Source of the DNA: Catellatospora vulcania
GTDB taxonomy: Bacteria; Actinomycetota; Actinomycetes; Mycobacteriales; Micromonosporaceae
NCBI RefSeq assembly: GCF_009720385.1
Contig: NZ_WARX01000007.1
Location: 62,001-126,000 of the forward strand
Reading direction: 5' to 3'
DNA: 64,000 nucleotides
The notes below the pieces were generated by a model. It was not told the DNA's origin. It searched no databases and worked only from the letters and a program-made list of their open reading frames with translations. This document shows positions 6,959 through 25,298 of the stretch, in pieces. Both the position numbers and the translations under genes were made by a program. Positions within the stretch are counted from its first letter, which is position 1; each line of letters begins with the position of its first letter.

Positions 6959-8677
6959 TCACATGCGTTCGGGGGCCTCGATACCGAGCAGGTCCAGGCC
7001 CTGCGCGACGACCCGCGCGGTCAGGTCGCACAGCAGCAGGCGGCTGGCCCGGACGGGGCCGTCGGCCTTGAGCACCGGGCAGCTGTCGTAGAACGCCGTG
7101 TACGCCCCGGCCAGGCCCTGCAGGTAGCCGGCGAGCCGGTGGAACTGCATCGTGGCGCCCGCGTCCGCGACGACCGCGGCGAAGCCCAGCAGCTCCATCG
7201 CGAGCGCCCGCTCGGCGGGGGAGTCGAGCAGCACCGCGGCCGCCCGGTCCGGCACGACCCCGCCCCTCCGGAAGATCGAGTTGATCCGGGCGTACGTGTA
7301 CTGCAGGTAGGCCCCCGTGTCGCCGGAGAACGACAGCATCCGGTCCCAGTTGAAGCTGTAGTCCTTGATCCGGTCGCTGGACAGGTCGACGTACTTGATC
7401 GCGCCGATGCCGACCATGCGGGCGACCTCGGCCCGGGTGTCGGCGTCGAGGTCCGGATTGTTCTCCACGATGGCCGCGGCCCGCGCCACCGCCTCGTCGA
7501 GCAGGTCCATCAGCATGACGGCGTCCCCGGCCCGCGACGCCAGCTTCTTGCCGTCCGCGCCCAGCACCTGGCCGAAGCCGACGTGCACGGCCCGGGCCGG
7601 TTCGCTCAGCCAGCCCGCCTCGCGCGCGGTCTGGAACACCATCTCCAGGTGCTGATGCTGCGGCGAGCCGACCACGTACAGCAGCCGGGTCGCCTTCAGG
7701 TCCTGGGTCCGGTGCCGGATCGCGGCCAGGTCCGTCGCGCCGTAGCCGTAGCCGCCGTCGCGTTTGCGCACGATGATCGGCATCGGCTCGCCGTCGCGGC
7801 CGGTGAAGCCCTGCGGGAACACGCACAGCGCGCCGTCGCTCTCGCGGAGCAGGCCGAGGCCGTCGAGGGCGTCCACGACGGGGGCGAGCATGTCGTTGTA
7901 GTACGACTCGCCGCAGAAGTGCTCCGCGGTCAGGGTGACGCCCAGCTTGGTGTACACGGCCAGGCAGTGCTTCTCGCTCTCGTCGACCAGCAGCCGCCAC
8001 AGCCGCAGCGTGGCCGGGTCGCCGGACTGCAGCGCCACCACCCGCTGCCGGGACCGCTCGGCGAACGCCGGGTCGGCGTCGAACTTCATCCGCGCCGACT
8101 GGTAGAAGGCGTTGAGGTCGCCGATCGACAGGTCGTGCGCCGCGTCGGTCTCGCCCAGGTCGAGCAGGTGCTCGATGAGCATGCCGAACGGGGTGCCCCA
8201 GTCGCCGACGTGGTTGGCCCGCCGTACGTCGTGGCCGAGCCAGTCCAGGGTCCGCGCGGCGGCGTCGCCGATCACGGTGGTGCGCAGGTGCCCGGCGTGC
8301 ATCTCCTTGGCCACGTTCGGCGCGGAGTAGTCGATGACCACGGTCTCCGGTGCGGCGGTCGTGGGCACGCCGAGCCGCTCGTCGCGGCTCATCGCGGCGA
8401 GCAGCCCTGCCAGGGCGTCGTCGCGCAGCTTCAGGTTGATGAACCCCGGCCCGGAGATCTCCGCGGTGGCGACCAGGTCGGCCAGGTCGGCACGGCCCAG
8501 CGCGTCGGCGGCGATCTCGCGCGGCGCCCGACCGAGCCGCCGGGCCAGCGGCAGCGCGCCGTCGGCCTGGAAGTCGGCGTGCTGCGACCGGCGCACCACC
8601 GGATCCACCGCCTCGCCCGCCACCGCCGCGAAAGCGGCCGCCAACCGGTCGTTGAGCAGACTCTCCAGATCAGTCAC
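6959..8677 (-). CDS. argS: Arginyl-tRNA synthetase
   Basis: Class I aminoacyl-tRNA synthetase that charges tRNA-Arg in the cytoplasm; 572 residues, normal for bacterial ArgRS. The N-terminal Add1 domain (about 1-110) includes SGPGFINLKL. The catalytic HIGH variant is in PNVAKEMHAGHLRTTVIGD, and the KMSKS-equivalent region reads GADGKKLASRAGD. The C-terminal DALR anticodon-binding domain follows LQYTYARINSIFRRGG. The start is GTG at 8677. The only Shine-Dalgarno-like stretch (AGAGAG) lies inside a possible small hairpin, and a terminator-like stem-loop and a short Arg-codon ORF lie upstream, suggesting attenuation control. This is the clearest essential housekeeping gene in the window. Confidence 0.98.
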   Translation of the reverse strand: MTDLESLLNDRLAAAFAAVAGEAVDPVVRRSQHADFQADGALPLARRLGRAPREIAADALGRADLADLVATAEISGPGFINLKLRDDALAGLLAAMSRDERLGVPTTAAPETVVIDYSAPNVAKEMHAGHLRTTVIGDAAARTLDWLGHDVRRANHVGDWGTPFGMLIEHLLDLGETDAAHDLSIGDLNAFYQSARMKFDADPAFAERSRQRVVALQSGDPATLRLWRLLVDESEKHCLAVYTKLGVTLTAEHFCGESYYNDMLAPVVDALDGLGLLRESDGALCVFPQGFTGRDGEPMPIIVRKRDGGYGYGATDLAAIRHRTQDLKATRLLYVVGSPQHQHLEMVFQTAREAGWLSEPARAVHVGFGQVLGADGKKLASRAGDAVMLMDLLDEAVARAAAIVENNPDLDADTRAEVARMVGIGAIKYVDLSSDRIKDYSFNWDRMLSFSGDTGAYLQYTYARINSIFRRGGVVPDRAAAVLLDSPAERALAMELLGFAAVVADAGATMQFHRLAGYLQGLAGAYTAFYDSCPVLKADGPVRASRLLLCDLTARVVAQGLDLLGIEAPERM

Positions 8678-8694: not shown

Positions 8695-8719
8695 GAGAAA
8701 ACAGGCAGGAAGGCCCGCC
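8695..8719 (-). terminator. Terminator-like hairpin with T-rich tail just upstream of argS
   Basis: Read on the minus strand: GGCGGG, loop CCTT, CCTGCC (six pairs, one G-U), followed directly by TGTTTTCTC. It ends about 18 bases before the argS start codon and lies after the leader ORF at 8807-8911. This position fits an attenuator rather than an end-of-gene terminator. A GACGCC (plus coordinates 8786-8791) earlier in the leader is complementary to GGCGTC (8722-8727), which abuts the hairpin. Confidence 0.55.
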
Positions 8720-8806
8720 GGGACGCCATCGCGCCGGACACGGACCATCACGAGGATCAGACAGCAGAAGATGCGGAGAAAGGCAGGCGTCGCGCGCGGG
8801 AAAGCG

Positions 8807-8911
8807 TCAGCGAGCTGCCACGATTCGTCGTCGCTCGATCACGACGACGAGACCCGCCGGGCGCACGACGCCACGGCCACAACGGCCGGCATGCGCAACA
8901 GCGGAAAACAT
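8807..8911 (-). CDS. Putative argS leader peptide (34 aa, Arg-rich, three consecutive CGA codons)
   Basis: An ATG-started frame of 34 codons ending VVVIERRRIVAAR, with seven Arg residues. The central three are consecutive CGA codons (plus-strand 8825-8833), a codon seldom used in this GC-rich sequence. A -10-like TAGGCT (8918-8923) lies six bases before the ATG, so the message may be leaderless; no clear -35 is visible and the Shine-Dalgarno is poor. About 90 bases downstream is a terminator-like hairpin, then argS. The arrangement matches ribosome-mediated attenuation, in which stalling at Arg codons would favour argS read-through. Another overlapping frame here is also Arg-rich, so conservation is needed to be certain. 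Confidence 0.5.
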   Translation of the reverse strand: MFSAVAHAGRCGRGVVRPAGLVVVIERRRIVAAR

Positions 8912-8944
8912 GCACCGAGCCTATCCCACCCCACCACCGAGAAA

Positions 8945-23207: not shown

Positions 23208-25298
23208 ATGTCGCTGAGAAGCGATCGGGTTCTGGTCGTCTTCGCACTCGGCTGCCTCGGGTGGCTGGCGCTGTACGCCGCACTGACCTACCTGGGCCAG
23301 GACAGACCCGGCCTGGCCCGGTTCACCGGCGAGGTGCTGTACCTGGTGCCGGTGGCCACCCTGCTCGGATTGAGCATCTACGCCGCCCGGCGCACCACGG
23401 GCCGGACCAGGACCGCGTGGCGGCTGCTGGTCGCCTCCAACGTGGCCTGGGTGTGCGGGGACACGGTCTGGGCGTACTACGTGTACAACACCCCCGGCGG
23501 CGACCCTCCGGTGCCGACGCTGGCCGATGCCTTCTACCTGCTGCGCTTCCTGCTGACCATGCCCGCCATCATGATCGCGCTGGGGTTGAAGCTGCGCGGG
23601 CTGCTCGACGCGCTGCTGGTGGCCGCGGCCGGGGCGGCGATCGGCTGGCAGCTGGTCATCAGCCCGTTGGTGCCGGCCAGCTGGGACCCCGACGCGTTCG
23701 TCACGTTCCTGTACCCGGTCTTCTCGGTCGTCATCTTCAGCGTGCTGGTCGCGCTGATGCTGACCGGCGCGCGGCGGGTGCCCGCCGCGATGGTCCTGTT
23801 CACCGTGGCGTTCGGGTTCGCCGTGGTGATGGACGGGGTGTACGCCTACGTCAGCGTGCTGCACCAGTACACCAGCTCCACCTGGCTGAACGTGGGCTGG
23901 CAGGCCGAAATCCTGCTGCTGTGCCTGGCGGCGCTGGTCGCGGCGCGGCACTCCCGCGACGAAGAGGACCAGCCGACCCACGAGGTGACCTTCCTGCCCG
24001 CCCTGGTCGCCGTGCTCGTCGTCGGCGGCCTCGCCGCAGCCGACCTGATCCTGTCCGGGCACCTCAGCCGGGTGACCCTGTCGGTGGCCATGCTGCTGCT
24101 GATCGGCCTGCTGGTACGCCAGATCGTCGCCTCCCGCGACCGGACGCGGCTCACCGAGCAACTGCGTAGCGCCGCCATCACCGACGCGCTGACCGGTGTC
24201 TACAACCGCCGCTTCTTCGAAGAGATGCTCGCCGCAGACACGGACGGGCACGGCGCCCCGCGGAGCGTCGTGCTGGTGGACCTCGACCACTTCAAGGCCA
24301 TCAACGACACCCACGGCCATATGGTGGGCGACGCGGTGCTGGCCGAGGTCGCCGAAAGGCTGCGGCGCTCTCTGCGGGCCGGCGACCTGCTGTGCCGTTA
24401 CGGCGGGGAGGAGTTCGTCTGCCTGCTGCCGCGCACCGACGCGACGGCGGCCCGGGAGCTGGCCGAGCGGCTCCGGGTCGACCTTCGCTCCACCCCCGTG
24501 ACCGTGCCCGGCGTCGCCGAGCCGCTGGCGCTGACGGCGTCGTTCGGCGTCGCCTGCGCCGGCCCCGCCGACTCCGGGCAGCTCCGCGTCGACCAGCTCG
24601 TCGACGACGCGGACCGGGCGCTGTACCGGGCCAAGGCGCAGGGCCGCGACCGCGTGCTCGGCTGCGGCCCGCGCGAGCAGGCCGAGGCCGTGCCCCTGCT
24701 CGATCTGCCACCGGAGCTGGTCTGGTTCGCCGACGAACTCGACCGGATCCGCGGGGACGGCGCGCGCAGCGCGGCGGTCGGCGACTGGGCCTGGCGGACG
24801 GCCGCCGCGCTCGGCCTGGACGAGGCGACCCGGTTGCACATCGCCGCCGCGGCCCGCCTGCACGGCATCGGCTGTCTCAGCGTCGGCTGCCCGCCACCGG
24901 CTCCCGGCGGCGCGGACGCGGACCGCGACAACGCGGCCCGCGCCGGGCCGGAGCAGGCCGCCCGCCTGCTCGCCGACCTGGCGCACCGGCCGGAACTGGA
25001 ACCGCTGCTCGCCGCCGCGCACGAGCGCCACGACGGCTCCGGCTACCCGCGCGGGCTCGCCGGGTCCGGCATCCCCATCGGGGCGCGGATCATCGCGGTG
25101 TGCGACGGCTGGGCCGACGCCTGTCGCGGCGCGACGCCCGCGTCCGGGGCGGGCCAGGCTCGACGGGTGCTGCGCGAGGAGCGGGGCACCCGGTACGACC
25201 CCGCGGTCGTGGACGTCCTCCTCGCCCTGGCCGCCGAGGGCGCGCTCACCGAACCAGTGCCGGCGCGTCCAGGCGGGCCGGCTGCCGCGGCCGGATGA
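23208..25298 (+). CDS. Membrane diguanylate cyclase (GGEEF) with degenerate HD-GYP domain
   Basis: About 696 residues. Eight or so N-terminal helices (about 10-300) form a membrane sensor with Trp/Tyr-rich loops. The GGEEF domain (about 325-490) has intact VDLDHFKAINDTHGH, the active-site RYGGEEF and the inhibitory RxxD site (RAGD) five residues before it. The C-terminal part (about 505-680) resembles HD-GYP: HERHDGSGYPRGL is present but the metal-binding HD reads ARLHGIG, so phosphodiesterase activity is doubtful. I favour the ATG at 23208, with AGGAG five bases upstream, over 23139. It probably makes cyclic di-GMP in response to a membrane signal. Confidence 0.92.
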   Translation: MSLRSDRVLVVFALGCLGWLALYAALTYLGQDRPGLARFTGEVLYLVPVATLLGLSIYAARRTTGRTRTAWRLLVASNVAWVCGDTVWAYYVYNTPGGDPPVPTLADAFYLLRFLLTMPAIMIALGLKLRGLLDALLVAAAGAAIGWQLVISPLVPASWDPDAFVTFLYPVFSVVIFSVLVALMLTGARRVPAAMVLFTVAFGFAVVMDGVYAYVSVLHQYTSSTWLNVGWQAEILLLCLAALVAARHSRDEEDQPTHEVTFLPALVAVLVVGGLAAADLILSGHLSRVTLSVAMLLLIGLLVRQIVASRDRTRLTEQLRSAAITDALTGVYNRRFFEEMLAADTDGHGAPRSVVLVDLDHFKAINDTHGHMVGDAVLAEVAERLRRSLRAGDLLCRYGGEEFVCLLPRTDATAARELAERLRVDLRSTPVTVPGVAEPLALTASFGVACAGPADSGQLRVDQLVDDADRALYRAKAQGRDRVLGCGPREQAEAVPLLDLPPELVWFADELDRIRGDGARSAAVGDWAWRTAAALGLDEATRLHIAAAARLHGIGCLSVGCPPPAPGGADADRDNAARAGPEQAARLLADLAHRPELEPLLAAAHERHDGSGYPRGLAGSGIPIGARIIAVCDGWADACRGATPASGAGQARRVLREERGTRYDPAVVDVLLALAAEGALTEPVPARPGGPAAAAG

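Follow-up and report, generated by a model that had tools for sequence, protein, structure and literature searches.

The nearest functional parallel to the locus described here is an auxiliary tryptophanyl-tRNA synthetase gene under ribosome-mediated transcriptional attenuation (Vecchione and Sello 2010, cited in PMC4787780). As far as the citing text goes, the two cases share an auxiliary synthetase and ribosome-mediated attenuation; the amino acid is tryptophan there, and would be arginine here. Related leaders are described from Streptomyces lividans, in which short open reading frames with cognate codons likewise precede leuS, trpS, alaS, and thrS. Those of leuS, trpS, and thrS are transcribed leaderless, several of the leaders are without a typical terminator, and the eight leaders listed in the available portion of that study depend on Leu, Trp, Ala, Ile, Met, and Thr, none of them on Arg (PMC8079986). 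Candidate leader peptides before actinobacterial synthetase genes, comparable to the one examined here, also come from the classical attenuators of Streptomyces trpS and leuS; the same survey, in the sections available, states that conserved RNA structures were not observed upstream of arginine operons (PMC1262725).

The nearest arginine-codon sensor, judging from the accessible part of its description, is orf34 of Salmonella speF. It too has 34 codons, and two consecutive Arg codons sense arginine through ribosome slowing. It differs in the gene controlled (ornithine decarboxylase), in the machinery (Rho, RBS unfolding, and RNase G), and in belonging to another phylum (PMC6386406). No description of a leader peptide for argS was found among the mainly open-access papers searched.

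The window analyzed here, 64,000 nucleotides of the Catellatospora vulcania genome, probably contains such a system: a ribosome-mediated attenuator that is specific for arginine and lies in the 5' leader of an auxiliary arginyl-tRNA synthetase gene (probability roughly 0.8, from sequence comparison). Very probably, the arginine-rich leader, which is found in many Micromonosporaceae, a family of soil bacteria, lets the cell switch on a backup argS when charged tRNA-Arg is low.

An arginine-codon leader before an accessory argS

The relevant features, all on the minus strand, are the following.

8918..8923, minus strand: −10-like box TAGGCT, 6 nt 5' of the leader ATG (leaderless layout), read from the sequence
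8807..8911, minus strand: leader open reading frame of 34 codons, ATG at 8911 to TGA at 8807 by translation, proposed name argL
8825..8833, minus strand: putative sensor run CGA-CGA-CGA (Arg27-29) near the leader end, from codon counts across leaders
8782..8819, minus strand: candidate hairpin P1, GGCAG (8819-8815) with CTGCC (8786-8782), drawn by eye on a 13-locus alignment
8776..8786, minus strand: pyrimidine-rich element CTGCCTTTCTC, possibly a Rho or anti-SD element
8695..8719, minus strand: terminator-like hairpin GGCGGGCCTTCCTGCC with tail TGTTTTCTC (stem 8719-8704, tail 8703-8695)
6959..8677, minus strand: accessory argS, 572 aa, GTG start at 8677 (TIGR00456, 463 bits)

The original prediction had picked out the 34-codon frame with TAGGCT six nucleotides before it (8911-8807, box 8923-8918), the three consecutive CGA codons (8833-8825), a hairpin with a U-rich tail, and a pair of complementary hexamers, and each of these is indeed present at its place in the window. 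The frame specifies the peptide MFSAVAHAGRCGRGVVRPAGLVVVIERRRIVAAR, read from the ATG at 8911 to the TGA at 8807 on the minus strand. The hexamers are GACGCC (8791-8786) and GGCGTC (8727-8722), and the argS GTG lies 17 nt past the tail TGTTTTCTC. The leader looks like more than a chance frame: over both strands, the window holds three frames of this leaderless type, and one of them contains RRR.

The gene served by the arginine-codon leader is concerned with the same amino acid as the codon run (argS, TIGR00456 463 bits). It is a second, accessory gene, a point that the first reading of the sequence had overlooked: the same genome has a canonical argS at another place (G000:C1; TIGR00456, 377 bits), with 36% and 29% identity to the window argS in two stretches. 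A listed 349-aa open reading frame ends 9 nt before the longest frame of this canonical argS. The attenuated tryptophanyl-tRNA synthetase gene is reportedly trpRS1 of Streptomyces coelicolor; the second canonical synthetase in the same genome that goes with a trpRS1-like auxiliary gene is found here as well.

The arrangement suggests the following course of events. Transcription would begin at the leader ATG. If charged tRNA-Arg ran short, as on failure of the main ArgRS, the ribosome would stall at CGA, and the leader end would be available for pairing with the RNA that follows the stop codon; that pairing would allow transcription or translation to continue into argS. With arginine plentiful, the ribosome at the stop codon would mask the leader end, an alternative fold would form, and argS would be off.

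Conservation of the leader

Matches to argS were sought in 121 genomes of the family, 11 of the genus, 160 of Micromonospora, and 296 of the class. They were obtained in 81 of the 121 family genomes (E <= 1e-100, a hand count from the table), in all 11 of the genus, in 119 of the 160 Micromonospora genomes, and in 91 of the 296 class genomes. A named set comprised the best 80 of 579 relatives, the top matches being Catellatospora. Upstream regions were fetched for 69 of the 81 family genomes at E <= 1e-100, for 93 of 123 listed Micromonospora matches (88 after deduplication), and for 50 of 96 listed class matches (48 of them new). Removal of regions with identical last 150 nt (L036-L038, L162, L226, L231, L235, and L243) reduced 290 upstream regions to 282; near-duplicates stay between the named and unnamed sets (for example, L039/L170 and L049/L117).

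A leaderless-type frame with RRR precedes argS at 103 of these 282 loci, which are related, so that the counts are not independent events. The reverse strand gave 0/282, and 20 dinucleotide shuffles averaged 1.15, with no more than 4 in any one of them. Runs of other residues at the same 282 loci numbered nine for S, five for V, and one for A. The RRR leader is present in all 11 Catellatospora genomes and at 64 of 88 Micromonospora loci, where a further nine have shorter Arg leaders and six have a gltX tail. Among the remaining Micromonosporaceae and the named near loci, 28 of 72 have it, with six shorter Arg leaders and two gltX tails in addition. (The short-leader class, S, with 15 loci and the gltX class, X, with eight were assigned by hand.) It is absent from the 63 distant named loci (0/63) and the 48 class loci (0/48).

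The layout recurs closely. In 100 of the 103 RRR leaders, TANNNT and the start are 6-7 nt apart, within the 5-9 nt that the search rule itself required, and the distance from the Arg run to the stop is 5-7 codons in 88 of 103. The peptides diverge across lineages (VIERRRIVAAR, SRVARRRVPAAR, GALRRRRSRDRLR, MHSTFSERRRRLHGRR), and the Arg run and spacings are kept. The leader is conserved by layout, not by peptide. The claim that an Arg-codon leader peptide with a leaderless layout belongs to argS is supported by its conservation in relatives, with codon-type changes; a lack of conservation of the frame or of its CGA codons, which would have counted against the claim, was not observed.

Eight aligned Catellatospora leaders allow a finer view. 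The frame is kept, with gaps of only 3 and 12 nt, and the tail RRRI(V/M/T)AAR is conserved, as is the element CTGCCTTTCTC, with few changes. Over the first 24 codons, difference rates at positions 1, 2, and 3 are 0.124, 0.224, and 0.233, which suggests that the peptide is unconstrained there. In the tail, the rates are 0.052 and 0.078 at positions 1 and 2, and third positions show 0/308 differences. This points to a constraint on RNA or codons beyond the amino acids, an RNA-level constraint mixed with the coding constraint.

Some relatives depart from the pattern. Where the leader is missing, a TANNNT box often stands directly before argS itself (24 of the 171 near loci). In L013-L020, L026, L045, L048, L049, and others, which have no leader, argS follows a TAGATT-like box at a distance of 6-8 nt and so looks leaderless. 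Two short leaders with CGA pairs (L124 and L142), noticed by eye, were missed by the search rules. At L121, the last 150 nt before argS keep the leader start and the post-leader hairpin, and the Arg part and stop are apparently deleted; this seems to be a natural loss of the sensor by internal deletion.

Codon choice in the arginine run

Codons were counted in 70 distinct 16-residue tails from the 103 loci. The original prediction had given weight to CGA, and this is borne out: CGA is the first codon of the Arg run in 63 of the 70 distinct leaders, against 61 of 3754 Arg codons (1.6%) in the argS genes of the same loci and 7 of 225 Arg codons elsewhere in the leaders. The whole run is mixed (CGA 118, CGG 78, CGC 53, CGT 6, and AGG 1 of 256 codons), indicating that the residue is kept throughout and that only the opening codon is nearly invariant. 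The one run with AGG favors selection on the residue, not solely on an RNA motif.

The tRNA-Arg anticodons in the genome of the window are ACG (two places), CCG, CCT, TCT, and a weak GCG match. Of 60 tRNA places, 56 were read, one with an unclear anticodon, and TCG was seen in none; the four others, at 81-87 nt, are as long as class II tRNAs. CGA is decoded by tRNA-Arg(ACG) in its inosine form. Given that no TCG was seen among the places read, CGA should be decoded by the inosine tRNA, and tRNA-Arg(ICG) is probably its only reader in this genome. CGA is poorly translated by the tRNAs for CGU/C/A, and in the Salmonella his leader it strongly raises de-attenuation, according to the portion of the study available (PMC4046918).

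Three observations concern the tRNA complement itself. A 1.3-kb array of eight tRNA genes (L335; G000:C3:563780-565060) includes an extra tRNA-Arg(ACG) and is possibly an additional set of mobile origin. Also unusual is the weak tRNA-like match at L348 (G000:C4:481530-481650), whose Arg anticodon is GCG. Within the window, ARAGORN called a tRNA-Ala(ggc) at 24902-24994 on the minus strand; the genome-wide RF00005 matches do not include it, and it is probably a false call.

Alternative explanations

The strict conservation of the tail raises the question of whether a conserved RNA element (GCGACGACG...GGCAGCTCGCTGA), protein-bound or folded, acts alone, with the Arg codons as a by-product. The absence of third-position differences in the Catellatospora tail would fit such an element, as would the invariant columns that form a block in the alignment of 13 loci. 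Other lineages, however, keep an in-frame Arg run with CGC, CGG, CGT, and AGG codons and with other flanks; the start box and the stop stay at their spacing, and the reverse strand yields nothing at 282 loci. An RNA acting alone is therefore unlikely.

Far less probable still are two simpler accounts. Arg codons are common in GC-rich sequence, and the terminator hairpin, taken by itself, does not outdo shuffled sequence, as expected if the leader were a chance small frame in GC-rich DNA; against this stand the 103 loci, where shuffles never gave more than four, and the rarity of CGA elsewhere. Control of argS by a T-box or another known riboswitch has a similarly slight claim. Aminoacyl-tRNA synthetase genes are often under T-box control, but no Rfam family, the T-box included, matches the window at gathering score, and the T-box was rejected on that ground. 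The arginine-sensing leader peptide accounts best for the frame, its layout, and its codons.

A gltX tail in place of the leader

At eight loci (L021, L022, L158, L159, L161, L167, L171, and L180), argS is preceded by a frame ending in LGRERT(L/V)ARLRAALDRLS, in the place of the leader. The two such genomes tested contain two gltX (glutamyl-tRNA synthetase) genes each, the second, full-length and directly before argS (L330 and L328); the five other genomes tested, including that of the window, contain one gltX each.

The tail of this second gene, gltX2, is distinctive in its codons. Over the last 19 codons at the eight loci, CGA makes up 16 of 40 Arg codons, and in the body of the gene it makes up 11 of 259; the last 22 codons of seven housekeeping gltX genes have CGA at 0 of 39. 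Identical codons occupy 15 of 16 same-residue positions in the gltX2 tail, versus fractions of 0.20-0.67 in nine upstream windows. The eight loci are close relatives and represent one lineage. An ArgS tree built from 110 of the 282 loci (quick method, SH-aLRT only) places all eight in a single Micromonospora branch, alongside short leaders with a similar tail. The tail may have given rise to the leaders or have replaced one. One of the leaders, at L160, is a 48-residue frame with the gltX2 C-terminus, ending about 123 nt before argS; the single gltX found in that genome lies elsewhere, and the leader looks like a remnant after loss of gltX2.

These features suggest an evolutionary course for the Micromonospora lineage, for and against which the odds seem evenly balanced: the native Arg-rich tail of gltX2, recoded with CGA, would sense arginine for argS, stand-alone leaders such as that of L160 would be relics after loss of the gene body, and CGA, decoded by the inosine tRNA, would be a general sensing codon.

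Possible routes from sensor to argS expression

The arginine-sensing half of the system is well supported. The output is another matter. The original prediction had proposed an intrinsic terminator, for which support is poor: a U-tailed hairpin occurs at 5 of the 103 RRR-leader loci (L001, L006, L034, L178, and L266) and at 3 of 11 in the genus (L001, L006, and L034), with only L034 at the aligned place of that in the window. The window hairpin itself has a z of −0.71, and 44 of 200 shuffles fold equally well. As a common output, an intrinsic terminator was rejected on the count of 5 in 103. The accompanying antiterminator, GACGCC with GGCGTC, is not borne out in general: the hexamers are complementary in the window, but by eye the register differs in L033, L004, L034, and L005, although a shifted version of the pairing is drawable in L033 and L034.

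Over 48 hand-chosen loci, a duplex between the leader end and the 60 nt that follow it exceeds shuffles weakly (mean z −0.82; p <= 0.05 at 5/48); in the window, that duplex does not exceed them, with a z of +0.36 and 119 of 200 shuffles equally good. The candidate P1 (GGCAG/CTGCC) can be drawn by eye in Catellatospora relatives, and would compete with a ribosome sitting at the leader stop. GGCAGC is invariant, leaving P1 no covariation, and the fold of 8818-8767 has a z of −1.24, with 26 of 200 shuffles equally good.

In Micromonospora, a hairpin just past the stop is 97.2% paired over 86 sequences, versus 17-63% when slid. Two-sided changes fill 7 of 774 cells, and 0 of 500 shuffles were as high on pairing and these cells; for the number of pairs changed, 49 of 500 were as high. 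A rival pairing between the leader end and the 5' arm of this hairpin is 96.9% paired and nearly invariant (column shuffles average 96.8%, 86 of 500 as high), with two-sided change in two cells and with one pair that fails 15 times. An in-leader hairpin, P0, is not supported as drawn: it is 58.4% paired, and a shift of one column raises this to 63.2% and increases the two-sided changes. Also rejected was a switch that masks the SD sequence. Between the stalled and stop states, accessibility rose by more than 0.02 at 11 and fell at 13 of 41 chosen loci, with the start codon misplaced for L039.

For the output stage, slightly favored is a variant of the preferred reading, whose odds overlap with those given above: the same leader sensor with Rho-dependent termination or translational control as output. 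The scarcity of U-tailed hairpins and a C/U-rich stretch 3' of the leader stop argue for it, as do two precedents in the accessible parts of their descriptions: Salmonella speF orf34, which combines consecutive Arg codons with Rho and RBS unfolding (PMC6386406), and actinobacterial cys operon leaders reported without obvious terminators (PMC1262725). On the other side, the window does have a terminator-like site, with counterparts at two more of the 11 genus loci, and no consistent SD accessibility switch is predicted. Rho or translation is at least as likely an output as intrinsic termination, and the output step may differ between lineages.

Implications

With an argS leader of this kind, the amino acids that leader peptides sense ahead of synthetase genes would come to include arginine. 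Its tie to a backup ArgRS suggests a defense in case the main enzyme fails or is inhibited. Since CGA opens the run almost without exception, it can be tested directly whether slow inosine decoding was chosen as a sensor, and the gltX2 tails offer a rare view of how a leader peptide may originate.
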